Virus record (IMG/VR): IMGVR_UViG_3300042898_004604
Location: 1-30,163 of that record
From: a virus
DNA: 30,163 nucleotides
Reading direction: 5' to 3' (one strand)
Shown here: piece by piece, positions 1,392 through 17,166 of the stretch
Layout of the letters: each line of letters opens with the position of its first letter
Position numbering within the stretch: position 1 is the stretch's first letter
Notes under the pieces: generated by a model
Databases searched by the model: none
What the model saw: only the letters and a program-made list of their open reading frames with translations
What the model was told of the DNA's origin: nothing
Position numbers and translations under genes: made by a program

Positions 1392-3227
1392 ATGAGTATA
1401 GAAAAGAAATTTAAAAAATTAGATGATGTCTCACATGTTTTGCATAGGCCATCAATGTATATTGGATCTATAAAGCCACATACTGCAAAGAAGTATCTTT
1501 TAGAAGATGGAAAAATGATTCAAAGGGAGATAACTTATAACCCAGGTTTTCTCAAGATTTTTGATGAAATAATCACCAATTCTGTTGATGAACATAAAAG
1601 AGAAGGTTCAGTACTCAATATTATTAAAGTAACATTAAGTGGAAATATCATATCTGTTTGGGATAATGGTGGAATACCTGTTGTGAAACACGAAGAACAT
1701 GATGAGTGGATTCCAGAGATGGTATTCTCAAATCTTAAAGCCGGTTCTAATTTTAATGACGAAGAGGCTAGAATAGGAGCGGGAACTAATGGTGTTGGAT
1801 CTACATTAACTAATATTTATTCAGCTGAATTCAAAATATCTACCTGTGATGGTAAAAATTTATTCATACAAACTTTCAAAAATAATATGAGAGAAAGAGG
1901 TGATGTTAAAATAAAAAAATCTACGAAAAACTTCACAGAAATTAATTACACACCAGACTATGAGAAGTTTGGATTAGATGGATTAGATGAATCACACTCT
2001 AAAATGATTCAAAAAAGAGTTATTGATATTGCTGGATGTAATCCTGGTATTAAAGTTTATTTCAATAATGAGTTAATAACTTTGAAATCATTTGAAGATT
2101 ATGTTAAATTTTATAAACCAACATATTTTTATGAAACAAATAAAGATAAATCTTGGTCTATTGCTGTTGCACCAACTTCAGAAGGATTTCAACAAATATC
2201 ATTTGTTAATTCAACTGATACTTATGATGGTGGATCTCACGTTGATTACATCTTAAATCAAATAATATCTGAGATGAGAGAGTTCTTTCAGAAGAAACAT
2301 AAGGTTGATGTAAAACCATCAGAGTTTAAAAATCACATTTCAATTTTTATTAATTCAACAATTGTTAATCCAAGTTTCTCTTCTCAAACAAAAGAAAAAC
2401 TTATTACTGAGGTTAAAGATTTTGGATATACATATCAAGTACCTGAGAAATTAATTAAATCAATTTTAAAATCCGAAATAGTTGATTCTATACTTGACTG
2501 GGTTCAACAAAAGAAAAGTGCTGATGATAGTAAATTAGCTCGTGAATTAAATAAAAATCTATCTAAAATCAAAGTTGAAAAGTTAATTGATGCTAAAAAT
2601 AAAGATAGATGGAAATGCTCAATGGGTATATTTGAAGGTGATTCAGCGATATCTGCTTTTAGAAAGTATAGAGAACCACAATTTATGGGAGCTTTTGCAC
2701 TTAAAGGTAAATTTACAAATGTATCTGAATTAACAAATCAAAAATTAGTTCAAAATAATGAAGTTGTTAATTTAATGGCATCTATTGGTCTAAAACTGGG
2801 ACAAAAGCCAGATTTAAAAGACTTAAGATACGGAAAGATACTTTTTTATGTTGATGCTGATGTCGATGGTAATTCTATTGCTGGTCTTCTTCTAAACTTC
2901 TTTAATAAGTACTGGCCTGATTTATTTGATCGAAATATGGTTTATAAAGTTGAGACACCTATTGTAGTAACGATAAATAAGAAATCAAAAAAGAAGTTAT
3001 TATTCTATACACAAACTGAATATAATGAGTGGTCTTTAAAGGAAGATTTAAAACTTTGGGAGATTAAATATAAGAAAGGTCTCGCGGCACTTGTTGATGA
3101 TGAGTATCAAGAGATTATAAATAATCCAAAATTGACAAAGATTACTAAGGATGAGTTATCAGATGAGTATTTAGATATCTGGTTTGGTAAAAATTCAGAA
3201 CTTAGAAAAAATCAAATATTGAACTAA
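1392..3227 (+). CDS. 39: DNA topoisomerase II large subunit, fused gp39/gp60-like
   Basis: ATPase subunit (GyrB/ParE-type) of the phage type IIA topoisomerase, partner of the gp52-like subunit. The 611-residue protein begins with a GHKL ATPase domain: N-box DEIITNSVDEH (58-68), G1 box WDNGGIP (90-96) and G2 box GAGTNGVGS (129-137). The TOPRIM domain is in the same chain: EGDSA (about 415-419) and the metal-binding DADVDG (488-493). In T4 these regions are split between genes 39 and 60; here they are one gene, as in many T4 relatives. The start ATG follows an AT-rich leader without Shine-Dalgarno. Its stop overlaps the next start (TAATG), suggesting co-transcription with the downstream small genes. 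Confidence 0.95.
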   Translation: MSIEKKFKKLDDVSHVLHRPSMYIGSIKPHTAKKYLLEDGKMIQREITYNPGFLKIFDEIITNSVDEHKREGSVLNIIKVTLSGNIISVWDNGGIPVVKHEEHDEWIPEMVFSNLKAGSNFNDEEARIGAGTNGVGSTLTNIYSAEFKISTCDGKNLFIQTFKNNMRERGDVKIKKSTKNFTEINYTPDYEKFGLDGLDESHSKMIQKRVIDIAGCNPGIKVYFNNELITLKSFEDYVKFYKPTYFYETNKDKSWSIAVAPTSEGFQQISFVNSTDTYDGGSHVDYILNQIISEMREFFQKKHKVDVKPSEFKNHISIFINSTIVNPSFSSQTKEKLITEVKDFGYTYQVPEKLIKSILKSEIVDSILDWVQQKKSADDSKLARELNKNLSKIKVEKLIDAKNKDRWKCSMGIFEGDSAISAFRKYREPQFMGAFALKGKFTNVSELTNQKLVQNNEVVNLMASIGLKLGQKPDLKDLRYGKILFYVDADVDGNSIAGLLLNFFNKYWPDLFDRNMVYKVETPIVVTINKKSKKKLLFYTQTEYNEWSLKEDLKLWEIKYKKGLAALVDDEYQEIINNPKLTKITKDELSDEYLDIWFGKNSELRKNQILN

Positions 3228-4031: not shown

Positions 4032-4548
4032 TATTATACCAAATAATAGTGATTGGAAAGTCTCTAAAAACAGAGTCTTTAAGAAAAATATTGCTTGGGT
4101 TCCAATACTTGATATCGTTGATGATAATTTGATATACATCTTTCTAGATATAAGAATGTCTAAAGACATTTTAAAAGTGGTTAAGAATTTACAAAAAACA
4201 GATACTGAATTCTATTTTATATCACCACTTTTTGCTGATCCAGGATTTAATGGAGATTTCAATGAAATAAATATTAAAAACTATCTTAAAGATTATTCTA
4301 AGTCACAATTTTATGATGGGTTTGAGAAAATAGAATTTGATTTTATTGGAAATTTAATAGGATATTGTAAAAAAGAAAATTGTATTGAATTATTAAAAGA
4401 TATATACTTAGAAGTTAATAAAGAAGTTCAAAGTAAATTTTGGGATCATTATGCTAATAAAGAATATTTTAAAACAAAAAGAGAAGATATAAGAGAAATT
4501 TTTAATTCATTGTATAGAGATATACAACTACAACAGATACTAAGATGA
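4018..4548 (+). CDS. hypothetical protein, 176 aa
   Basis: I do not recognise this protein. It starts within the end of the preceding gene (14-base overlap) and its stop overlaps the next start (ATGATG at 4545), so it belongs to a run of tightly coupled genes following the topoisomerase large subunit. It has no signal peptide or membrane helix; the second half is lysine- and glutamate-rich and probably helical (about residues 120-176). Confidence 0.75.
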   Translation: MDLDSIIPNNSDWKVSKNRVFKKNIAWVPILDIVDDNLIYIFLDIRMSKDILKVVKNLQKTDTEFYFISPLFADPGFNGDFNEINIKNYLKDYSKSQFYDGFEKIEFDFIGNLIGYCKKENCIELLKDIYLEVNKEVQSKFWDHYANKEYFKTKREDIREIFNSLYRDIQLQQILR

Positions 4549-4808
4549 TGAATCATGATCAAAGAGAAATATTAGAAGATGGTGATTATTTTGATAATGA
4601 CTATTGGGACTACTATGAGTATGAACATTATTTTGATTATGGATACTATGGAGATGATGTATCATATGAAAGAAAGGAGAACGGCTTAGTTGATTGGTCT
4701 GAGGAGATACCAGTTGCTGTAAAGAGACAGCATAAAATTGATGAAATTTTAGGAAATATAGATGATAAATCGAATAGCTTAGATAAATTCTGGCCGAAGA
4801 ATGATTGA
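4545..4808 (+). CDS. small acidic Tyr/Asp-rich protein, 87 aa
   Basis: Unrecognised. The N-terminal half is remarkable: residues about 9-40 are almost wholly Asp, Glu, Tyr, Phe, Trp, Gly and His (for example DYFDNDYWDYYEYEHYFDYG), with almost no basic residues, whereas the second half looks like an ordinary helical domain with lysines. Small acidic aromatic-rich phage proteins can mimic DNA or bind RNA polymerase, but nothing here proves that. It overlaps the preceding gene by four bases and is followed by the RNase H leader hairpin. The opposing minus-strand frame is a shadow. Confidence 0.7.
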   Translation: MMNHDQREILEDGDYFDNDYWDYYEYEHYFDYGYYGDDVSYERKENGLVDWSEEIPVAVKRQHKIDEILGNIDDKSNSLDKFWPKND

Positions 4809-4859: not shown

Positions 4860-5843
4860 ATGTTACTAAACTTAATAATAGACGGCAATTATATACTTTC
4901 AAGATTAGTTTTTACATTACATAAGAATAATCTTTTATATGGTGCTCTTAGTCAATCTTTAGAAAATACAATTATAAGCTACAAAAAGCTTTATCCATTC
5001 ACCAACATTTATCTAGTATCCGATTCAAAGGAAAAGTCTTGGAGAAAGAATTTAAATAGTAATTATAAAGCTACTCGAAAAAAAGATACCGATATTGATT
5101 GGTCTTTTGTTTATAAGGTTTATGATGAATTTAAACAAAATATAAAGGGTGCTAGAATTTTAGAGTCACCAAGAATAGAAGGTGACGATTGGATTGCATT
5201 TCTAGTTCATAAAAATAATCAAAATAAACAATCTAATTTCATAGTATCTAATGATTATGATATTAAGCAACTATTAAAATTTGATATTGAAAATGAGTGG
5301 ATAAATTTCATGAGTAATGAAATGTATAATCAGGAGAAGATATTTTTACCTAAAAACTATCAAATATTTATAAATAAAATACAAGGTAAGTCAAACGATG
5401 ATATTTTCAATTTAAATGATAATACAGAATTTTTAAACTTAATGTTTAGATTTATAAATAAATATAATTTAAATGAAATTGACTCAATTGAGTCACTAAT
5501 GATTAAAATTATATCTGGTGATACAAGTGATAATATTCAATCAGTATATCAAACAAGTAAATCTGGTAAGGTAAGAGGAATTGGTGCCAAGGGAGCTCAA
5601 TCTGTATATGATTCATATCTAGTAGAATTTGGCGAACCGTCTTTACAAGATCCCGATTTGTTTGAAAACATAGCGGATATTATCTGTGAAAAAAAGAAAG
5701 TTTCTAAGACTAATATACAACCAATAGTATCAAGAATTCAAGAAAATATGAAACTTATTGATCTAAGAGTATATAACTTTCCACCGGAAATTGTAGATAG
5801 TATGAATAATGTTTATAACCAAAATATAGTATGGCAGAGTTAA
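4860..5843 (+). CDS. rnh: RNase H, FEN-family 5'-3' exonuclease (T4 Rnh type)
   Basis: Flap/5' nuclease expected to remove RNA primers of lagging-strand fragments, working with gp32 and the polymerase complex. The 327-residue chain carries the family residues in order: Asp8 in LIIDGNY, the basic arch region WRKNLNSNYKATRK (61-74), EGDD (107-110), SNDYD (130-134), GDTSDNI (220-226) and the helix-three-turn-helix GKVRGIGAKGA (236-246). T4 RNase H is 305 residues, so length fits. The ATG is the first codon after an AT-rich leader with a hairpin. Its 3' end overlaps the next gene by 13 bases, so the two are probably co-translated. Confidence 0.92.
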   Translation: MLLNLIIDGNYILSRLVFTLHKNNLLYGALSQSLENTIISYKKLYPFTNIYLVSDSKEKSWRKNLNSNYKATRKKDTDIDWSFVYKVYDEFKQNIKGARILESPRIEGDDWIAFLVHKNNQNKQSNFIVSNDYDIKQLLKFDIENEWINFMSNEMYNQEKIFLPKNYQIFINKIQGKSNDDIFNLNDNTEFLNLMFRFINKYNLNEIDSIESLMIKIISGDTSDNIQSVYQTSKSGKVRGIGAKGAQSVYDSYLVEFGEPSLQDPDLFENIADIICEKKKVSKTNIQPIVSRIQENMKLIDLRVYNFPPEIVDSMNNVYNQNIVWQS

Positions 5844-6223
5844 TAGATGTTGCAAATGCGATGTTTAGAAATAAGAAAGATTGGAAAAATATAACTGATT
5901 TAGATAAAGAGAAATTCTTTTTTATCTTCAATCGGTATTTTTCCAAAAAATTTACAACAAAATCACAATTATTAAATAATAAGAATGTGGATAAAAGTAC
6001 ATCACTAGATTTGTGGTATTACTTTATGTTGGATAAACCATACCCTAATTGGTTTTGGTCAAAAAGTCCTAAGTTTGAAAAAACTGATATACCTGATAGT
6101 GATTTCAAATTACTTTTCCTAAAACTAGGACTTAATAAAGAACAGGATTTAATCTATTTATTGGATAACTATCCAGATTTGATGCAAGAAGAATTAAAAT
6201 TTTACAAAACAAAAATAAAATAA
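5831..6223 (+). CDS. probable sliding-clamp loader small subunit, gp62-like
   Basis: Probable small subunit of the phage clamp loader, partner of a gp44-like ATPase outside this window. The 130-residue layout resembles short gp62 homologues of T4-type phages as I remember them: an N-terminal helix, FIFNRYFSKK (about 31-40, compare F-x-x-NR-x-x-S), then DLWYYFMLDKPYPNWFWSK (about 60-78, compare the aromatic/proline segment of gp62), then a C-terminal helical part with LGLNKEQ and LLDNYPDLMQEEL. T4 gp62 itself is longer (187 residues). It sits between RNase H and NusG and overlaps rnh by 13 bases, a replication context that fits. The call rests on pattern similarity only; a structure search would settle it. 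Confidence 0.5.
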   Translation: MAELIDVANAMFRNKKDWKNITDLDKEKFFFIFNRYFSKKFTTKSQLLNNKNVDKSTSLDLWYYFMLDKPYPNWFWSKSPKFEKTDIPDSDFKLLFLKLGLNKEQDLIYLLDNYPDLMQEELKFYKTKIK

Positions 6224-6224
6224 T

Positions 6225-6764
6225 ATGGCAGATTCAATGAATTGGTACGCAATTAGAACTCAAAATAACAGAGAACGTAGTGTTTTTGAGAAATTAAACC
6301 TGGAAATTATTAGATCCGGATTAAATGATGTTATCGGAAGACACATAATCCCAACTGAAAAGGTTTTTAGTGTTAAAAATGGTAAAAAAATAGCTAAAGA
6401 AAAGATTATCTATCCAGGATATTTATTTCTCGAAACCTCAGCTGTTGGTGAGATTAATAACTTCTTAAAGGGTATAAATGGTGCCGCTGGGTTTGTTAAA
6501 AGTAAATCAGGTGATATCACTCCATTAAAAGAGATTGAGGTTAGTAGAATGATTAAGGATCAAGATACTAATGACAATATAACAACATCAACGAGTCTTT
6601 TCTCAAAGGGTGAAGAAATTAAGGTTACCGAAGGAGCATTCTCAACTTTTAAAGGCACGATAACATCAGTAGATTCCGAAAAACAAAAGATAAAAGTTGA
6701 AATTTTGATTTTCTCAAGACCAACTGAAGTTGAGTTAGATTTCCTTCAAGTAGAAAGGGTATAA
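6225..6764 (+). CDS. nusG: NusG transcription elongation/antitermination factor
   Basis: Full-length NusG: it binds RNA polymerase across the cleft and modulates pausing, termination by Rho and coupling to translation. Of 179 residues, an NGN domain covers about 5-115 (NWYAIRTQNNRERSVFEKL, then PTEKVFSVKNGKKI and YPGYLFLE) and a KOW domain about 125-179 (GEEIKVTEGAFSTFKGTI, ending in EVELDFLQVERV). The PTEKV...NGKKI...YPGY pattern and the unbroken length look like Bacteroidota NusG, so I infer capture from a host. It starts one base after the gp62-like stop and is followed directly by another gene, placing it in the replication operon. Phage NusG homologues are uncommon. Confidence 0.93.
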   Translation: MADSMNWYAIRTQNNRERSVFEKLNLEIIRSGLNDVIGRHIIPTEKVFSVKNGKKIAKEKIIYPGYLFLETSAVGEINNFLKGINGAAGFVKSKSGDITPLKEIEVSRMIKDQDTNDNITTSTSLFSKGEEIKVTEGAFSTFKGTITSVDSEKQKIKVEILIFSRPTEVELDFLQVERV

Positions 6765-6974
6765 ATGAGAGAAGTTGATGAAGATTTTTTAGATAGAATA
6801 AATAAAGCATCTAATATAATTGCTTTAAAATCCAGAAGAGCTGGTGCTAGCTGGATGGTGGCGTCGGCAGCTGTTGCTGCATCAATTTTTTCAATAAATA
6901 ATAGTAATAAAATTTCGAAAATTTCGAAAATATTGAAAAATATAAAAGAAGATGATAGATGTAAAAATATTTGA
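6765..6974 (+). CDS. small putative membrane protein, 69 aa
   Basis: Unrecognised. The ATG follows immediately after the nusG stop (TAAATG), indicating coupling. Residues about 28-45 (GASWMVASAAVAASIFSI) form one hydrophobic stretch that could be a single membrane helix; the rest is charged. The tail (KISKISKILKNIKED) is encoded by a short direct DNA repeat (AATTTCGAAA twice around 6911-6930) and would form an amphipathic helix. Confidence 0.6.
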   Translation: MREVDEDFLDRINKASNIIALKSRRAGASWMVASAAVAASIFSINNSNKISKISKILKNIKEDDRCKNI

Positions 6975-7428: not shown

Positions 7429-7522
7429 TATATCAAGTTTTAATCAGGTGTTGAGTGATGTGTGTTAGTCGATTGAAACTCAAAATATAATATATCTATG
7501 GACTCTGAGAGTTATATATGTA

Positions 7523-7795
7523 ATGAAGAAGATAAACAGACCGCGCCTAGCGACAGTATTTCTAATGATCGCAATGTTTCTAAACCCCTTAGGTTTCGAC
7601 GCGGTTCAACTGATTTTAATAAAATTAACAGGTTCCTTATTAAGTGCGAATTTGGTATTGTATTGCCTTGCAGTGTTCTTTTTTGGATTATATTTCTACT
7701 TCTCAGGTAATAATCCTTTTAAAGAAGTTAGAGATATAATAAAAAGTGTTTATTATGATAAAATAAAACATTTTAAATACAAAGGTTGGTGGTAA
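7523..7795 (+). CDS. small membrane protein, two predicted helices, 90 aa
   Basis: Function unknown. After a short basic N-terminus (MKKINRPRL) there are hydrophobic stretches at about 10-34 and 42-62, followed by a basic C-terminal tail rich in Lys and aromatic residues, so it is probably a two-helix inner-membrane protein with the tail in the cytoplasm. A second open frame (7498-7710, 70 aa, also ending in a hydrophobic helix) overlaps it almost entirely; I prefer this frame because it covers the whole interval and has a normal membrane-protein layout. The gap before it holds a possible stem (TTGAGT at 7451-7456 with ACTCAA at 7478-7483). Confidence 0.6.
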   Translation: MKKINRPRLATVFLMIAMFLNPLGFDAVQLILIKLTGSLLSANLVLYCLAVFFFGLYFYFSGNNPFKEVRDIIKSVYYDKIKHFKYKGWW

Positions 7796-9263: not shown

Positions 9264-10607
9264 ATGAAAATTCATAACTACACACAGTTTATCAGAGAAT
9301 CTAACGATCTATCAACCCATTATCTTCCAACTTATGAGGATTGTGCGGAAATGTGTGCAAAAGAAAATGCTGCTTTCTATGAGTCTAAGTTTGTGATTGA
9401 TGGTTATAATATTTCGGTATTCAATTATCGCCTCGCTCAATATAAAGATTTTGTAACACCACTTGAGAATAAGCCAGATGTTAAAGCATATGAAATGAGA
9501 GGTTTAACCTTTGTATTCAATGAAGATGGATCGTTGTTTAGAAGATTCTTATTGCTTGAAAAGTTCTTTAATCTTAATCAAGTTCCAGAGGCTATGTACT
9601 CTATCGTTAAAAACTATAAGATTAAGTTTATCAATAACAAAGAGGACGGATCTATTGCATCATTCATTAAACTACCAAATGGTAAAGTTTTAGGTAAATC
9701 TAAAATGGGATTTGATAATGAACAATCTAATGGTATTAATAGAATATACAGAACTAGAACAGATGTTAAGACATTTGTTGATTGGTGTTTAAATAACGAT
9801 ATCACTTCTATTTTTGAGTATGTTTCACCTGCTAATCGTATTGTTCTAAGATATTTAGATGAAGACCTTATACTTTTAAGAATGAGAGATAACACAACTG
9901 GTAAGCATCTTGATATTAAGAACTATCTTGATAAGATTGATACTATTAGAATTGCACCATTTGAAGATGATAATAAAGATTTAGATTCTTTAATAGAAGT
10001 TATAGCTAAAGAAGTTGATAAAGAAGGTGTTATTGTTCAAGCTGAAGATAAATATGGCAAGGATTTTTTCTTTAAGTTAAAAACTCCTTGGTATATGGAA
10101 CGCCATGGATTATTGACTAATGATATTTACAGAGAACATATCATTATCGGATATATTTTAGATGATAAGATTGATGATATTCTTGGACAAATACCAGAAG
10201 ATGAAAAAGAAGCACACTTGAGAATTAATAAAATAATTCAAATAGTTAAAAAGGCAATTAATGATAAATCTGTTGAGATAGAAAGGGCTTATAAAGATTA
10301 TATAAAATCTGGAATTTCAAGAAAAGATTATGCGATAAATCAAAGAAAAAGTAATATTAATTTTGCATTTGTGATGGAGATGGTCAAAGCTGATGATATG
10401 AGAAGGATGTCTAAAGAACAGATTATAGACCATTATGATTCTATGGAAGCTTATGAAAAATCATTAAAAAGATGCGAACCATATGAAATGGCTAAAGAGT
10501 GGTTAAGAGATCTAACCAAAAGATTGGCTATTTCAAGAGAGTGGTTAAAAACAAAAGATAAAACTTTGTTTTTTCAAGATCCAGACACTGAAAATGAAGA
10601 TAATTAA
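9264..10607 (+). CDS. rnlA: T4 Rnl1-type RNA ligase with N-terminal internal-protein-like tag
   Basis: ATP-dependent RNA ligase that seals 5'-phosphate/3'-hydroxyl ends; T4 Rnl1 repairs tRNA cut by host anticodon nuclease. Visible family marks: MRGLTFVF...LLLEKFFNLNQ (78-106), the nucleotidyl motif KEDGS with Lys126, KSKMGF (145-150), FEYVSPANRIVL (184-195), EGVIVQ (254-259) and KLKTPWY (271-277). These align with T4 Rnl1 segments such as KEDGS at Lys99 and FEFVAPTNRIVL. The protein is 447 residues against 374 in T4: about 20 extra N-terminal residues hold the tag MKIHNYTQFIRE with a protease-like site IRE, and the C-terminal domain is about 40 residues longer. It is followed at once by an intrinsic terminator. 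Enzymatic class is secure; packaging in the head is inference. Confidence 0.93.
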   Translation: MKIHNYTQFIRESNDLSTHYLPTYEDCAEMCAKENAAFYESKFVIDGYNISVFNYRLAQYKDFVTPLENKPDVKAYEMRGLTFVFNEDGSLFRRFLLLEKFFNLNQVPEAMYSIVKNYKIKFINNKEDGSIASFIKLPNGKVLGKSKMGFDNEQSNGINRIYRTRTDVKTFVDWCLNNDITSIFEYVSPANRIVLRYLDEDLILLRMRDNTTGKHLDIKNYLDKIDTIRIAPFEDDNKDLDSLIEVIAKEVDKEGVIVQAEDKYGKDFFFKLKTPWYMERHGLLTNDIYREHIIIGYILDDKIDDILGQIPEDEKEAHLRINKIIQIVKKAINDKSVEIERAYKDYIKSGISRKDYAINQRKSNINFAFVMEMVKADDMRRMSKEQIIDHYDSMEAYEKSLKRCEPYEMAKEWLRDLTKRLAISREWLKTKDKTLFFQDPDTENEDN

Positions 10608-10631
10608 AGACACTTTTTAGTGTCTTTTTTT
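10606..10631 (+). terminator. intrinsic terminator after RNA ligase
   Basis: AAAGACACT and AGTGTCTTT form a 9-bp stem with a TTTT loop and a following T-run. The stem begins inside the RNA ligase stop codon. Confidence 0.85.
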
Positions 10632-10787: not shown

Positions 10788-12665
10788 ATGAGCAAAAAAA
10801 ATGTAATTATCGGAATTGATCTTGGGACCACAAATTCCGCGGTTGCCGTTGTTGAGGCTGGAGAACCAGTTATTATCAGTAATTCTGAAGGAAAAAGAAC
10901 TACACCTTCAGTTGTAGGTTTCACAGATAAAGATCGTAAAGTAGGAGATCCTGCTAAAAGACAATCATTAACAAATCCTACCAAAACAGTTTATTCAATT
11001 AAACGATTTATTGGAAAAGATTTTTCAAAATGTACTGACGAAATCAAAAGAGTACCTTATAAGGTAGTTAAAACTGGAAATAACGTTCCAGGTGTTGATA
11101 TTGATGATCGTAAATACACACCACAAGAAATATCAGCAATGATTCTTCAAAAAATGAAGAAAACTGCTGAAGATTATCTTGGACATGAAGTTACTCGTGC
11201 AGTAATTACAGTTCCTGCTTATTTCGGCGATGCTGAAAGAACAGCAACTATTGAGGCTGGTGAAATCGCAGGACTAATAGTTGAAAGAATTATTAATGAA
11301 CCAACTGCGGCAGCACTTGCATACGGTCTTGATAAGAAAAATAAAGAATCTAAAATCCTAGTATTTGATTGTGGCGGTGGAACACATGACGTATCAGTTC
11401 TTGAAATTGGTGACGGTGTGTTTGAAGTAAAATCTACTGATGGTGATGTTCACTTAGGTGGTGATGATTTTGATAACGCAATCATTAATTGGATGGTTGA
11501 TGAATTTAAAACTGAACATTCAATGGACTTATCAAAAGATCCAATGTCTCTTCAACGATTGAAAGATGCCGCTGAGAAAGCAAAGATTGAATTAAGTTCT
11601 GCATCTGAAAGTGATATTAATTTACCTTATATTACAGCTAAGGATTCAACACCTCTACACTTTGTTAAAAAATTAACACGTTCTAAGTTTGACCAATTAA
11701 CTTCCTCTCTTATAGATAGAGCTATCGCTTGTGCGAAAACAGCTTTAACTAAAGCAGGTATTAAGGCATCTGATATTGATGAAATTATTTTGGTTGGTGG
11801 TTCTACAAGAATCCCAGCTATCCAAGAAGCTATTGAAAAGAACTTCAATAAGAAACCAAATAAGTCTGTCAATCCAGATGAAGTTGTTGCTATTGGAGCA
11901 GCTATTCAAGGAGCTGTACTAACAGGGAATATAACTGATGTTTTGTTATTGGATGTAACACCACTTTCTTTAGGTATTGAAACAATGGGTGGTGTATTCA
12001 CTAAACTAATTGAATCTAATACTACTATCCCAACTCGTAAGTCTGAAAACTTCTCAACGGCAGCTGATAACCAATCATCTGTTGAGATCCATGTACTTCA
12101 AGGAGAAAGACCAATGGCTAGAGATAATAGATCACTAGGACGATTCCATTTGGATGGTATAATGCCGGCTCCTCGTGGTATTCCTAAAATTGAATGTACT
12201 ATTGATATTGATGCCAATGGCATACTATCTGTAACTGCTAAGGATCAAGCTTCAGGGAAAGAAAATAAAATCCGAATTGAAGGCGGATCTCAACTTTCTA
12301 AAGAAGAAATTGAACGTATGAAAGCAGATGCTGAAGCGAATGCTGAGTCTGATAGACTTGAAAAAGAAAAGGTTGATAAATTAAATCAAGCTGATAATAT
12401 GATTTTCCAAACTGAAAAACAAATTAAAGAGTTTGATGAAAAATTAACTGAATCTGATAAAACAGAATTGAATACTATTCTTGCGGATTTGAGTTCGGCT
12501 CATAAAGAACAAGATATAGATAAAATAGATTCAGAAATGAATAAATTAAATGAATCTTGGTCAAGAATCAGTACGAATTTATATTCTCAGGCTAGTTCAG
12601 AACAGACAGGTACTCCAGATACTCAACCGGATGTACAAGATGTTAACTTTGAAGAAGTTAAGTAA
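10788..12665 (+). CDS. dnaK: molecular chaperone DnaK (Hsp70)
   Basis: ATP-dependent Hsp70 chaperone. The 625-residue protein has the phosphate-1 motif [17 protein letters not shown] (9-25), the phosphate-2 motif [10 protein letters not shown] (193-202, with Cys where Leu is usual), [20 protein letters not shown], the linker region [16 protein letters not shown], the substrate-binding beta domain and a helical lid, ending in [10 protein letters not shown], the conserved C-terminus of Bacteroidota DnaK. It appears full length and intact, so it was probably captured from a host; base composition is somewhat less AT-rich than in neighbouring genes. With GrpE (15044) and DnaJ (16123) it completes a phage-borne chaperone set, possibly for capsid or replication-complex folding. 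Regulation: a palindrome and a -24/-12-like element upstream, an intrinsic terminator downstream. Confidence 0.98.
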
Positions 12666-12671
12666 AAAAAT

Positions 12672-12701
12672 AAAAACCCACTCAAATGAGTGGGTTTTTT
12701 T
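12672..12701 (+). terminator. intrinsic terminator after dnaK
   Basis: AAAAACCCACTC / GAGTGGGTTTTT stem with a four-base loop and T-run, seven bases after the dnaK stop. The A-run on the other side means it could also stop minus-strand transcripts coming from 14219. Confidence 0.9.
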
Positions 12702-12717
12702 ATTTAAAAACTTTTCT

Positions 12718-12725
12718 TATATTTG
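12718..12725 (+). promoter_or_regulatory. Bacteroidota-type -7 element TATATTTG, near-leaderless
   Basis: TATATTTG followed by only four bases (TAGA) before the ATG at 12730. It sits directly after the dnaK terminator, where a new promoter is needed, so the downstream gene is probably transcribed from its own start codon or nearly so. Confidence 0.5.
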
Positions 12726-12729
12726 TAGA

Positions 12730-12972
12730 ATGAAATATAATATAGGTGATATTCTAATTTGTTCAACTGATGAAATGTATGGTCAAAAAAACCAAAAATT
12801 AATTATCGGTCATAAATATGTAATACTGGATGTTATTGAAATGTGGGAGGGTAGAACAATTCTTGATATCAAACATTTAAGTTCATCTATAAGATTAGGT
12901 CTTGTTAGTGATAAACATTTTATATCATTAGAAGTTTATCGTGAATTCCAATTAAGAAAAATATTAAACTGA
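12730..12972 (+). CDS. small SH3-like protein, 80 aa
   Basis: Unknown function. The sequence (MKYNIGDILICSTDEMYG, then LIIGHKYVILDVIEM) has the G-D-x-hydrophobic-C then G-x-x-Y-x-V-x-D pattern of small SH3-like beta-barrel proteins common in phages. I chose the ATG at 12730 rather than an upstream in-frame start inside dnaK, because a terminator and a TATATTTG element lie in between. It is convergent with the minus-strand tagged gene, two bases away. Confidence 0.75.
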   Translation: MKYNIGDILICSTDEMYGQKNQKLIIGHKYVILDVIEMWEGRTILDIKHLSSSIRLGLVSDKHFISLEVYREFQLRKILN

Positions 12973-12974
12973 AA

Positions 12975-14219
12975 TTACTCATCATCATCATCAAGATAGT
13001 CATATCCACCACCTGTATCGTTTAATAAACGATCAGCACTTACATCTTCCTTAGAGTTGCTTAACTCACCAGTACCACTATTAAGATAACATAGAGTATC
13101 GAGATATGGATAAGGCTCGTCTTCCCAGTGCTTTAAATCTACTATGTAGTCTGTAATTTTTGATTCATTTCCTCTCTCAGCTGTAAAATTACTACTAGAT
13201 GATTGATTTCTCTTACACCACCAGTTATTTTTACTTGCAAATTTCTTAAACAAATCAACATCAGAGTCATTGTTTGTGTAGATTCTATCCATTAAGATAT
13301 CTCCACTTCTTGTTGTCCAAAGTATTGCTCTTCCACAGATTTTATCAGAACGATATTGGCCGCCAACAATACTACCATTTTTAGACCACAAAACAACTAA
13401 CTTACAAACCTCTGGGTTATCTACATAGATATCAAATGTAGAATCCGGCATATCAGCCATACAAGATGATCCTAATGTACCATCATCACTTTCATAGTAA
13501 TCGTGATTATATAATTTTGAAATTGTAGAACCTTGTACTACTTCAAATCTACTAAATGCGTCGTTAATAATATCAATTGTGGCTTTATAATCATTTACAA
13601 ATTTCTCAATTTCTGAGTCACTTATGTTTGTATTTCCTGATCTATATAACGCTCTAACTAATCTTCCGATTCTTATTGGATTTCTTGATGTACCCCATAC
13701 TTTACTAAGAGTATCATCATGATCGGATAAAGCTTCTTTATTTATGACAGTTTTCATTCCTATATCAAAACTATTAGGACTCTGAATACATTCGAAATGA
13801 CAATATATTTTAGAATTTGATCCTACTATTTCTGATAGTATCTTACCAATAGTTCCAACTGTTGGTTTGTATATATCACCTTCAGGTCTTTCGAATCCAA
13901 GTTTATTGAATGTGTTTATATTAGAATCTGTATTTCTTAGAGTTCTACCACCTTGAGTAACTTTATAAAGTATCTCTCTACCACCAATAATTTCTTGAGC
14001 CTTTCTATCTGTTGTGAACATAACAGAATCATTGTCAGTACTTAAATCAATGAAGTTTTGTTGTAAATTTACATCTTTTGATCCTAAACTAATAAGATAA
14101 CTAGATACTGGCGATTGTATAGACTTTAAAACATTTAAAAACCCATTAGATAAAACCAATTTACTTTCTAGTAAAGCTTCTAATCTTTTTTCTGTTATAA
14201 ATTCTGAATAATTATACAT
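12975..14219 (-). CDS. tagged protein of unnamed phage family, 414 aa; putative internal head protein
   Basis: The N-terminus MYNYSEFITE has exactly the spacing of the T4 IPIII propeptide (MKTYQEFIAE), with a possible cleavage after Glu10 and another LxE site at LLE (residues 16-18). The body has a central NPIRIGRLVRAL...SDSEIEKFVNDYK segment (about 183-213) and a C-terminal domain with GTLGSSCMADMP, NPEVCKLVVLW, GRAILWTTRSGD and DRIYTNNDSDVDLF. I remember this C-terminal pattern from large phages but know no function; a conserved Cys after GSS makes a hydrolase or transferase conceivable. The acidic tail is encoded by a GAT-type run (ATC repeats near 12980). No late promoter is visible upstream. 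Confidence 0.85.
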   Translation of the reverse strand: MYNYSEFITEKRLEALLESKLVLSNGFLNVLKSIQSPVSSYLISLGSKDVNLQQNFIDLSTDNDSVMFTTDRKAQEIIGGREILYKVTQGGRTLRNTDSNINTFNKLGFERPEGDIYKPTVGTIGKILSEIVGSNSKIYCHFECIQSPNSFDIGMKTVINKEALSDHDDTLSKVWGTSRNPIRIGRLVRALYRSGNTNISDSEIEKFVNDYKATIDIINDAFSRFEVVQGSTISKLYNHDYYESDDGTLGSSCMADMPDSTFDIYVDNPEVCKLVVLWSKNGSIVGGQYRSDKICGRAILWTTRSGDILMDRIYTNNDSDVDLFKKFASKNNWWCKRNQSSSSNFTAERGNESKITDYIVDLKHWEDEPYPYLDTLCYLNSGTGELSNSKEDVSADRLLNDTGGGYDYLDDDDE

Positions 14220-14244
14220 TAAAGTTAATATTTTTAATTATATA

Positions 14245-14454
14245 TTAAAATCTCTTAATACTAAAATTTTTACCTAATTTATAAGAAGTACCATTTAACA
14301 TGTATTTAATATCACCTATTTTTATATTTTGCCAAGCTCTCTTCTTTTTTAAATAAACTCTCATCATAACATATCCTAGTTCTGTTAGATAGATTTGTTC
14401 GATAGTTCCACTACCTTCAGGTGTTTCAATTTCATTTTGAATTAGATCCTTCAA
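14245..14454 (-). CDS. hypothetical small protein, 69 aa, TTG start
   Basis: Unknown function. The sequence has IETPEGSGTIEQIYLTELG followed by a VMMRVYLKKK segment and IGDIKYML, an SH3-like beta pattern seen in small phage proteins. No ATG is available before residue 29, so the start is the TTG at 14454; the conserved-looking segment begins about ten residues later. It lies 25 bases upstream of the tagged minus-strand gene and may be co-transcribed with it. Confidence 0.6.
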   Translation of the reverse strand: MKDLIQNEIETPEGSGTIEQIYLTELGYVMMRVYLKKKRAWQNIKIGDIKYMLNGTSYKLGKNFSIKRF

Positions 14455-14555
14455 TGTTAAATTTGATTTTTTATTCTATAAAAGATAACATATATATATT
14501 TTTTTGAAACAAATTAATGATTTTTTTATAGAAAAAATAAAATGTTTATAAACGT

Positions 14556-15041
14556 ATGACGATAACTGTTTTACCAGAAGACTTAATAAAGAGATGTGTC
14601 TGGGACCATTATGTTTATTATGTATTGGGATCCGATAAAGAAGGAGAGAAAATATTAAAAGAGAATAAAGAGTTTGAAATAACAGAAAAAGATTCCTTAG
14701 TGATAGGGTTGCTAAAAACGATTGAAACTGAAAATTTAATACATAAATTTAACACCTATGTAGTCGATCTACTGAGCAATAAATCTATTAATAACAATCA
14801 ACAGACATTGCTTAGAAAAAGAACTCTAGAAACATCGGTTGATAAGTTCTTAGATAAGTTTCCAGACTATTGGACACCGGATTTGGTTTTCAAAAAGTCA
14901 TTAATTGATTTAGTAGATTATATTGATATCTTTAAGAAAAATATTGAAAAACTCGATATAATCAAAGTGACTGACCAAATGGGAACTTATGATTTTTTTG
15001 TCTCAAACAATGTAAAAAAATTACTTTCTTTTAATTATTAA
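14556..15041 (+). CDS. hypothetical protein, 161 aa, first gene of the grpE-dnaJ run
   Basis: Unrecognised. Soluble and largely helical, with PDYWTPDLVFKKSLIDLVDYID in the C-terminal half and no membrane or metal motif. It ends two bases before the grpE start, so it is co-transcribed with the co-chaperones and could be involved with them or with their client, but this is only positional inference. An AT-rich gap of 101 bases separates it from the divergent minus-strand gene. Confidence 0.75.
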   Translation: MTITVLPEDLIKRCVWDHYVYYVLGSDKEGEKILKENKEFEITEKDSLVIGLLKTIETENLIHKFNTYVVDLLSNKSINNNQQTLLRKRTLETSVDKFLDKFPDYWTPDLVFKKSLIDLVDYIDIFKKNIEKLDIIKVTDQMGTYDFFVSNNVKKLLSFNY

Positions 15042-15043
15042 TT

Positions 15044-15532
15044 ATGAAAACGAAAACGAAAACATCTGAAATTGACACTTCAACTCTTGAAGATGCAACT
15101 GTTGAAAAACCAATTAAAAAAAGCTCTAAACCTAAAAAAGATGTTGTAGAAGAGGATTGGAAAGATAAATACTACCGACTCTATGCTGACTTTGATAACT
15201 ATAAAAGGAGAGCTCAAAAGGAAAAAGAAGATTTGATTCTAGAAACCAAAACTAAATCTTTGAGTACTATTTTAGATCTAGACAATGATTTATATATTGC
15301 GAAGAAAAATATGCCAGATTCCGAAGGATTAAATCTAATTTTAAATAAAGTTCACACTTCTTTAAAGTCTCAAGGAATTGAAGAAATTCAAACTGATGAG
15401 TATGATTCGGATTTACACGAAGTTATTTCAATAATTGAAACTGGTGAGTCTAAAATAATAGATATTGTTTCAAAAGGTTATAAAATTAATGGTAAGCCTT
15501 TTAGATATCCAAAAATTATTCTATCTAAATAA
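15044..15532 (+). CDS. grpE: GrpE nucleotide exchange factor
   Basis: Nucleotide exchange factor that releases ADP from DnaK. The 162-residue protein has a charged, disordered start (about 1-40), a coiled-coil helix with YRLYADFDNYKRRAQKEKED (about 47-66), and the C-terminal beta domain with DEYDSDLHEVISI and VSKGYKINGKPFRYPKIILS, typical of GrpE. It is shorter than E. coli GrpE (197 residues) mainly at the N-terminus. It follows an unknown gene by two bases, and its stop overlaps the next start (TAATG). It pairs with the phage DnaK at 10788. Confidence 0.93.
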   Translation: MKTKTKTSEIDTSTLEDATVEKPIKKSSKPKKDVVEEDWKDKYYRLYADFDNYKRRAQKEKEDLILETKTKSLSTILDLDNDLYIAKKNMPDSEGLNLILNKVHTSLKSQGIEEIQTDEYDSDLHEVISIIETGESKIIDIVSKGYKINGKPFRYPKIILSK

Positions 15533-16074
15533 TGGATTTTAAAGATTCAAAATCTCTCAAAGAATTTGATAATGATAATCTTTACGATGCTTTATGTAAA
15601 GGTCTTAATCATCCAGATGATATTTCACATTTAAAAGATTTATTCAAGGATTCAACAACTTTGCATTATCATTTATTTGATTATCCAATTTTCACAGAGA
15701 AGAGGAATAAAACAGAAGAAAATCCAGATGGAAATAATCTTTTAGAATATATTCTTCCTTCTTTGAGAAGAGTTTATTCCAAATTTTTTATAAATCCACC
15801 GAGTATGTTAGTATCTTCAATTGAAAGTAAAAGATTAGAATTTTTTCAACTACAATTTAATTTAGTTGAATTTTTAACTTTTTTATCTGATAAATTTAAA
15901 AAGAATCATAATATATTAAATGATTTTACAAATATAGATACAGATAGTGAGTTACTCACACTAATCGTTGAAGATTACCTAGCATCAAAAGTTAGTTATA
16001 TACTATCATTAAATGTCTCAAATATTCAAAAGGAAATACGAGATATAAAAATATCAACAAAACTAGATATATGA
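15532..16074 (+). CDS. hypothetical protein between grpE and dnaJ, 180 aa
   Basis: Unrecognised helical soluble protein. Its ATG overlaps the grpE stop (TAATGG), implying coupled translation, and dnaJ follows after about 50 bases with its own late promoter. Features visible: DALCKGLNHPDDISHLKDLF near the start and SKFFINPPSMLVSS in the middle. Its place inside the co-chaperone run makes it a candidate client-specific adaptor, but nothing in the sequence shows this. Confidence 0.75.
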   Translation: MDFKDSKSLKEFDNDNLYDALCKGLNHPDDISHLKDLFKDSTTLHYHLFDYPIFTEKRNKTEENPDGNNLLEYILPSLRRVYSKFFINPPSMLVSSIESKRLEFFQLQFNLVEFLTFLSDKFKKNHNILNDFTNIDTDSELLTLIVEDYLASKVSYILSLNVSNIQKEIRDIKISTKLDI

Positions 16075-16091
16075 TTTGGTATCATTTTTGT

Positions 16092-16099
16092 TATAAATA
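16092..16099 (+). promoter_or_regulatory. T4-type late promoter TATAAATA before dnaJ
   Basis: Exact TATAAATA in the gap between the unknown gene and dnaJ, 23 bases before the dnaJ ATG. This suggests that dnaJ is also expressed late, when heads and tails are assembled. Confidence 0.55.
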
Positions 16100-16122
16100 A
16101 AATAAAAAGAATTTAAAGTAAT

Positions 16123-17166
16123 ATGAGTAAAGATTATTATCAAATACTTGAAGTTGACAGAGGATCATCAGACGATGAAATTAAGAAGTCATATAGAAAA
16201 ATGGCTATGAAGTACCATCCTGACAAGAATCCAGATAATCCACAAGCTGAAGAGAAATTTAAAGACTGTGCTGAAGCATTTGATGTTCTTTCTGATCCAC
16301 AAAAGAAGCAACAGTATGACCAATTTGGAACTGTTGGTGGTGGCGGAGGGAATCCATTTAATGGTGGATTTGGTGGATTTGAAGATATCTTTTCAAGATT
16401 TGGAGATTTCTTTGGACAAGGAGGTAGACAAAATAGAGTTAGAAAAGGACCAGATTTAAGAATGAAGGTTTCTATTAATCTAGAAGAAGTTATAAATGGT
16501 ACTAATAAGAAATTAAAGTATATCAGACAAACAAAATGCAATACATGTAGTGGTGCTGGTGGTAAGGATGTTCAAAAATGTAGCTCGTGTAATGGATCCG
16601 GTCAAAGAAGAGTTGTTCAAAATACACCATTTGGTACTATTCAACAACAAATTGTTTGTAATTCCTGTCAAGGTCAGGGAACACAAGTCAGAAATATTTG
16701 TTCAAATTGTAAAGGAAACGGTACAGTTCCGAATCAAGAGATAGTTGATATTCAAATTCCTAAAGGCGCGGCAAATGGAATAACATTCAATATGTCTAGT
16801 CATGGTAATTGGGCAAAGAATGTAGATACATTTGGTGATTTAATAATACAAGTTGAGGAAATATCAGATGCTATTTTTATAAGAGAACATAATAACCTTA
16901 TTTATGACCAATCAATTTCGGTGATTGATGCAATACTTGGTAAAGAAATTATTTTAAAAACACCCAATGGTGATATTAAATTTACAATAAGACCTGGTAC
17001 TTCTCATAAAGAAACTCTTAGAATACAAGGACAAGGCGTTCCAGATTTACAAATTGGAAGAGTTGGTGATCTTTTTATTAGAGTGAATGTTAAAATGCCA
17101 CAGTCTTTGACTATGGAGGAACGAAATATTTTAGAATCCTTAAAAGATAGTAAAAACTTTATTTAA
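16123..17166 (+). CDS. dnaJ: co-chaperone DnaJ (type I Hsp40)
   Basis: J-domain co-chaperone that stimulates DnaK ATPase and delivers substrates. The 347-residue protein has a J domain (1-68) with HPD at 32-34, a Gly/Phe-rich stretch (about 71-100), and four zinc-binding CxxC repeats: C139/C142, C153/C156, C179/C182 and C193/C196, then the C-terminal substrate-binding domains. It is a little shorter than typical type I DnaJ (about 370-380) at the C-terminal end. A TATAAATA late promoter lies upstream, and an intrinsic terminator lies just downstream inside the convergent glycosyltransferase gene, whose end overlaps dnaJ by four bases. Confidence 0.97.

Follow-up and report, generated by a model that had tools for sequence, protein, structure and literature searches.

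A conserved NusG lineage of huge phages, apparently captured from Bacteroidota-like bacteria, that may act on the host RNA polymerase

Background

NusG is a protein that rides on the bacterial RNA polymerase and, in the known representatives, binds the enzyme (at the beta' clamp and the beta lobe) through its NGN domain. Why, then, would a virus carry a NusG of its own? The question is raised by a gene in the stretch of DNA analysed here (hereinafter, the window), a 30-kb virus record of 30,163 nucleotides, which an earlier note, made from the sequence alone, had read as encoding a phage NusG that could replace the host protein on the polymerase, function as an antiterminator or support late transcription coupled to the sliding clamp. 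The existence of NusG-family genes in phages is already known in the form of database annotation (phrog_6386; Sinorhizobium phage phi3LM21), and what we have not found in print is a conserved, housekeeping-type NusG lineage that extends across the largest phages, so that the novelty lies in the lineage and not in the kind of gene. Our search of the open-licence literature, supplementary tables being outside its scope, found no report of NusG in huge or jumbo phages, and Supplementary Table 6 of PMC7162821, which is devoted to transcription and translation genes, may list nusG.

Results and discussion

An intact nusG gene among phage replication genes

The features of the window that are relevant for the analysis are the following.

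1392..3227, + strand: topoisomerase II large subunit, T4 gp39-type (Pfam and PHROG matches)
4860..5843, + strand: FEN / T4 RNase H-like 5'-3' exonuclease (PF02739, E 4.1e-15; phrog_107)
5831..6223, + strand: 130-aa gene directly upstream of nusG (helical; clamp loader small subunit, gp62-like, as a guess)
6225..6764, + strand: nusG gene, 179 aa (ORF from the ATG at 6225 to the stop at 6764; Pfam, PHROG and NCBIfam profile matches)
6237..6551, + strand: NGN domain, residues 5-109 (PF02357; alpha/beta fold in the AF2 model)
6606..6701, + strand: KOW motif of the C-terminal domain, residues 128-159 (PF00467; all-beta in the AF2 model)
6708..6719, + strand: loop I162-F163-S164-R165 (aligned with I164-F165-G166-R167 of Escherichia coli NusG)
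6765..6974, + strand: 69-aa ORF directly downstream of nusG (similarity confined to the first part of a deaminase-like 213-aa gene in the relatives)

The product of the nusG gene matches the TIGR00922 (nusG) model of NCBIfam over its full length, with a score of 139.1 bits that exceeds the cut-off of 135.7 (E 1.3e-40), and a PHROG family annotated as 'transcription antiterminator' (phrog_6386) over residues 3-179 (E 1.8e-29); the reverse strand across 6225-6764 contains many stops. The Pfam search delineates an NGN domain (E 1.6e-15) that is followed by one KOW motif, the latter with 22.1 bits, marginally below the cut-off of 22.3. The models for the specialised paralogs all scored below their cut-offs, namely, LoaP (NF033641), the second best NCBIfam model, with 87.9 bits (cut-off 125), UpxY (NF033644) with 61.6 bits (cut-off 100) and RfaH (TIGR01955) with 32.9 bits (cut-off 144.5). 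Bacterial NusGs are the nearest sequences in the Protein Data Bank, and NusG structures are the top Foldseek matches of the AF2 model (pLDDT 83.7, with values under 50 solely at residues 120-123, in the linker), in which the NGN domain is alpha/beta and the KOW domain all-beta, a model of this type being one that need not reveal RfaH-type fold switching. On these sequence matches, a chance assignment of the gene to the NusG family is excluded, and the description in the earlier note of a full-length protein with both domains is borne out.

The gene is placed in a neighbourhood of phage replication genes, in agreement with the earlier note, which took it for part of a replication operon that might be expressed early: the co-directional genes for the topoisomerase II large subunit and the 5'-3' exonuclease are located upstream, a single base separates nusG from the 130-aa gene, and 0 bases separate it from the 69-aa ORF. 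The T4-type complement of the window further includes an RNA ligase and a gp32-type single-strand binding protein; DnaK, GrpE, DnaJ and an IMP dehydrogenase/GMP reductase-like protein are encoded as well. There are no ribosomal or sec genes beside the window nusG, and the host genes, for example secE or rplK, that the earlier note had named as evidence against a phage-encoded gene are not found on either side. Host contamination of the window was considered and rejected given the phage neighbours, the conserved phage gene block described below and the lack of host nusG flanks.

Several other features of the window deserve mention in their own right. The 69-aa ORF looks like a truncated remnant, as judged from comparison with the deaminase-like gene of a related contig (L004 9261-9902). 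Many relatives possess, right after nusG, an HNH-endonuclease-like gene (identified by eye; L004:8542-9297, L007:6167, L008:12528, L016:6525) that is absent in the window. The DnaK, GrpE and DnaJ genes comprise a phage-borne chaperone set (10788-17166), with DnaK 77-81% identical in two huge phages. Two overlapping frames, 7498-7710 and 7523-7795, are both conserved in the relatives (54-81% and 74-89%, respectively), and a terminator-like element, made up of a hairpin of 9 bp with a T run after it, is located at 10606-10627, between the RNA ligase gene and dnaK. For the T4 late-promoter octamer, 16 occurrences were counted compared with 10.06 expected (sd 3.03), which is weakly above chance; for sigma-70-type promoters, with a consensus that need not fit Bacteroidota, there are 89 matches, compared with 72.7 on average (sd 8.8) in shuffled sequence.

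Conservation of nusG in the largest phages

A tblastn search of public phage records with the window NusG yielded 27 records, for 8 of which the flanking regions were examined. The best matches were to LR756502 (642 kb, 49% identity) and LR745206 (634 kb, 47%), followed by LR756504 (636 kb, 39%) and LR756501/LR756503 (735 kb, 35%), the match to LR756503, another record of 735 kb, being identical to that in LR756501. Genomes of 634, 636, 642 and 735 kb are the four largest complete curated ones reported by Al-Shayeb et al. 2020, who assigned five genomes over 634 kb to the Mahaphage clade with predicted replication in Bacteroidetes (PMC7162821). In addition, nusG was identified in 29 IMG/VR contigs. 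The NusG profile search detected exactly one copy in each of 10 records, including the four complete huge phages (634-735 kb), and 7 of the 10 relatives scanned passed the TIGR00922 cut-off; among those that scored below it despite the presence of the conserved gene block are L009 (111.4 bits) and L016 (117.3 bits).

This block, which consists of the FEN gene, the 130-aa gene and nusG, is present in 30 of 34 records, namely, 27 of the 29 IMG/VR contigs together with the window, L008 and L009 (the 735-kb phage is counted once and the other tblastn hits are left out). The four records that lack it are the 636-kb phage (L010), the 735-kb phage (L011), L043 and L045; in the 735-kb phage, nusG is found among genes that, by eye, resemble those for sugar modification and methyltransferases. 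None of six other phages (Lak phages A1, B5 and C1, XacN1, Xanthomonas phage X1 and T4) contains a NusG domain detectable at E 0.1, although the Lak phages, too, encode the topoisomerase.

A different situation is encountered in some public 'phage' records. One of these (L014) displays the bacterial order secE-nusG-rplK-rplA-rplJ-rplL-rpoB; in another (L013), nusG is followed by ORFs that, by eye, resemble ribosomal proteins and RNA polymerase subunits; and the order secE-nusG-rplK-rplA is seen in phage PhiMa05 (L012, MW495066). PhiMa05 has been published as a phage with ribosomal proteins, and NusG is not named in the part of that paper available to us (PMC13157829).

A probable origin from Bacteroidota-like bacteria, and purifying selection

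At least 286 bacterial relatives of the window NusG were confirmed, and the best 80 of these are all from Bacteroidota, with 37-44% identity. Phylogenetic trees were built from 121 rows thinned to 67 and, with UpxY, RfaH and L045 left out, to 47. In the 67-row tree, 24 phage copies form one clade (support 99/93) beside the housekeeping NusG of Bacteroidota and far from UpxY and RfaH; the copy of the 636-kb phage joins this clade (93/86, not starred), those of the 735-kb phage and L043 form long branches without a resolved position among the Bacteroidota hosts, and L045 falls near UpxY without support. The 47-row tree recovers a core phage clade of 20 (100/95) and splits the phages and Bacteroidota hosts from the NusGs of E. 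coli and Acinetobacter at 100/100. With the 47-row set, a single origin of all phage copies is not rejected (AU p 0.378), and the same applies to monophyly of the Bacteroidota hosts to the exclusion of the phages (p 0.367). The comparison with host NusGs and paralogs proposed in the earlier note thus places most of the phage copies in one clade next to Bacteroidota NusG, and the label 'Bacteroidota-like' holds both in the tree and among the best database matches. As far as can be judged from the sequences, the gene comes from a Bacteroidota-like source and was captured once or a few times, presumably long ago given the length of the phage branches.

The dN/dS values are between 0.046 and 0.215 in all 16 pairs compared (Nei-Gojobori method, which saturates for distant pairs), indicative of purifying selection, and therefore nusG appears to be kept for a function.

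The partner-binding loop is largely kept

In E. coli NusG, one of the residues of the KOW domain that touch ribosomal protein S10 is F165. The same phenylalanine, along with I164 and G166, is a key contact for Rho, and these residues have been lost in RfaH (PMC7593976). We aligned this loop for 27 core phage rows (L010, L011, L016, L043 and L045 are reported separately; L002/L003 and L041 are outside the set). The equivalents of F165 and R167 are present in all 27, the first position is I in 22 and V in 5, and the third is G in 22 and S in 5; the loop that the earlier note had singled out for inspection is, accordingly, largely retained. The five serines define the sub-clade of the window (the window and L004-L007), in which the I-F-S-R loop is identical to that of E. 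coli in 3 of 4 residues. Outside the core set, the loop is I-F-Q-R in the 636-kb phage, I-F-G-R in the 735-kb phage, L016 and L043, and L-L-C-G in L045. In the same alignment, I-F-G-R is found in 81 of 81 Bacteroidota host NusGs, and F at the position of E. coli F165 occurs in none of 5 UpxY sequences, nor in E. coli RfaH. The NGN domain of the phages has changed as well: the position of E. coli G17 is occupied by G in 78 of the 81 hosts and by N in 24 of the 27 core phages. Because residues of the NGN domain that are conserved in the hosts differ in the phages, and the window sub-clade has a serine in place of the Rho-contacting glycine, the contacts with the partners may have been altered.

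Transcription and translation genes of the related phages

Ten related records, comprising the four complete huge phages and six IMG/VR contigs, were searched for other components of the gene expression machinery. The RNA polymerase beta subunit was detected in 0 of the 10 (14 of 14 control genomes were positive) and Rho likewise in 0 of 10 (12 of 14 controls positive), absences that are firm for the four complete phages alone because the six contigs are of uncertain completeness. By contrast, sigma-70 region 2 is found in 8 of the 10, all four huge phages included, in ORFs of 197-289 aa that are ECF-type in appearance (by eye), and ribosomal protein S21 is encoded in 7 of the 10. NusA exceeds the cut-off in one record, the 636-kb phage (321.9 compared with 253.4 bits).

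That phage, LR756504, has therefore both a NusA (423 aa, L160:6663-7934) and a NusG of its own. In the 634-kb phage, a NusA match was weak (E 1.1e-4) and was not counted since the respective 363-aa ORF resembles, by eye, an S1-domain repeat protein. Proteins that look like S1-domain repeats (by eye) occur in the huge-phage relatives (L043:6533-7699, L165:1219-2310), one of them encoded by the immediate, convergently oriented neighbour of nusG.

What does the phage NusG do?

The explanation that we favour, and consider probable although by no means assured, is that the gene encodes a true NusG-type elongation factor, the product of an old capture from a Bacteroidota-like bacterium by an ancestor of the huge phages, which rides on the host RNA polymerase and replaces or supplements the host NusG. 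By analogy with known NusG, the NGN domain would bind the host polymerase at the beta' clamp and beta lobe, and the KOW domain would bind S10 and, possibly, Rho. During infection, the phage copy would take the place of the host NusG or add to it, such that the polymerase would be kept processive and coupled to the ribosome on the long phage operons, the transcription of which a phage-encoded sigma factor probably initiates. Among the three roles that the earlier note had put forward, the best fit is that of a protein which substitutes for host NusG on the host polymerase or works next to it, because none of the ten related records encodes an RNA polymerase beta subunit and the loop for Rho and S10 is largely kept. 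The economical reading of these gene inventories is that the phage reprograms the host polymerase with initiation and elongation factors of its own.

The second of these roles, that of a specialised antiterminator similar to RfaH or LoaP, which would load at phage sites, exclude host NusG and Rho and cause read-through of terminators, seems to us unlikely but deserves serious consideration. The name of the PHROG family and the rank of LoaP as the second best model point in this direction, as do the replacement of the Rho-contact glycine with serine in 5 of the 27 core rows and with glutamine in the 636-kb phage, and the location of nusG in the 735-kb phage; such sugar/transferase contexts are known for specialised NusG paralogs (PMC7819879). 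Against this, the scores for LoaP, UpxY and RfaH are far below the cut-offs, the equivalents of F165 and R167 are invariant in the core rows, the phenylalanine being lost in UpxY and RfaH, the modelled KOW domain is not helical, and the phage NusGs are far from UpxY and RfaH in the tree. Thus, the variation of the glycine and the genomic context in one phage are the main reasons to keep an antiterminator role in view, and the paralog scores, the loop and the tree make it the less well supported proposal.

Three further interpretations are less likely. An anti-host factor that would compete with host NusG or sequester Rho or S10, and would be dispensable for phage transcription, could account for the retention of most of the partner-binding loop in proteins with NGN residues different from those of the hosts; however, the NGN domain, which a pure decoy would not need, is conserved and complete, and the gene is placed with replication genes, so this strikes us as quite improbable. 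Very improbable, in our estimate, is a connection to replication through the adjacent 130-aa protein, on the model of late transcription in T4, which is coupled to the sliding clamp. The 130-aa gene is a constant neighbour in 30 of 34 records, a homolog of the clamp-loader large subunit is encoded in 6 of 6 related records without a gp62-like neighbour (by eye), and the 130-aa protein can be weakly aligned with gp62 (hhalign P 0.054). This alignment, however, is not significant, a fold search was empty, nusG lies outside the block in the phages of 636 and 735 kb, and T4 itself couples late transcription to the clamp without a NusG. The gp62 profile (PF16790) has a match in 0 of 10 records, and no firm link between the 130-aa protein and gp62 came out of searches by sequence, profile and fold; the sliding-clamp profile (PF02916) had no match anywhere, controls included, and so is uninformative. 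Clamp-coupled late transcription, the third role suggested earlier, accordingly finds no direct support here. Finally, a recent passenger gene without a selected function, or a host contig miscalled as viral, as might be imagined from the universality of NusG in bacteria and the bacterial nusG operons in several public 'phage' records, is hardly credible in view of the phage gene order conserved in 30 of 34 records, the purifying selection, the long separate branch and the presence of the gene in curated complete genomes.

Comparison with known NusG systems

The NusG-type elongation factor that we favour resembles the housekeeping NusG of Bacteroidota in the NGN-KOW architecture, the score over the TIGR00922 cut-off, the fold, the largely kept Rho/S10 loop and the grouping of the phage copies with Bacteroidota as opposed to proteobacterial NusG (100/100). 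It differs in the phage context, without the secE-nusG-rplK order (which is not part of the TIGR00922 model), in the identity of at most 44% to the best 80 of at least 286 bacterial loci, in the phage-specific changes of the NGN domain and in the separate clade. With RfaH, UpxY and LoaP it shares the superfamily and the status of an extra NusG-type protein beside that of the host, but it falls below all three cut-offs, its KOW domain is modelled as all-beta, and it mostly keeps the loop residues that UpxY and RfaH have lost.

Phage phi3LM21 and the contig L045 also encode NusG-family proteins, but those genes are situated just upstream of terminase genes (by eye for L045), unlike the window copy, which is found with replication genes. 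The L045 protein (4251-4772) is RfaH/UpxY-like, its best model being RfaH with 104.3 bits (under the cut-off), and its gene lies just upstream of terminase-/portal-like genes; proteins of this type may function as NusG-family antiterminators for the late genes of small phages. The antitermination complexes of lambda N and rrn use host NusG on the host polymerase (PMC7819879). By analogy, the huge phages, like lambda N, would have a NusG serve them on the host polymerase, the difference being that lambda uses the host's protein and the huge phages bring their own.

Conclusions

That giant phages keep a NusG of their own under strong selection suggests that it is a working part of a gene-reading machine that they bring along. 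A more far-reaching possibility, which we regard as rather unlikely, is that the largest known phages operate the host RNA polymerase by means of a transcription-translation kit that they supply themselves, in which an ECF-like sigma factor would act at the start, NusG (joined by NusA in the 636-kb phage) in elongation, and S21 and the S1-domain-like proteins at the ribosome, with the phage NusG linking a phage-programmed polymerase to phage-modified ribosomes; if true, this would amount to a phage expressome set apart from host gene expression. The phages also supply natural NusGs in which the Rho loop is altered (I-F-S-R and I-F-Q-R), suitable for asking what decides whether NusG engages Rho or the ribosome, and the presence of nusG can mark out this group of Bacteroidota phages. 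The conservation of nusG in the largest phages suggests that their takeover of host transcription extends beyond initiation to elongation and, perhaps, to the coupling with the ribosome.
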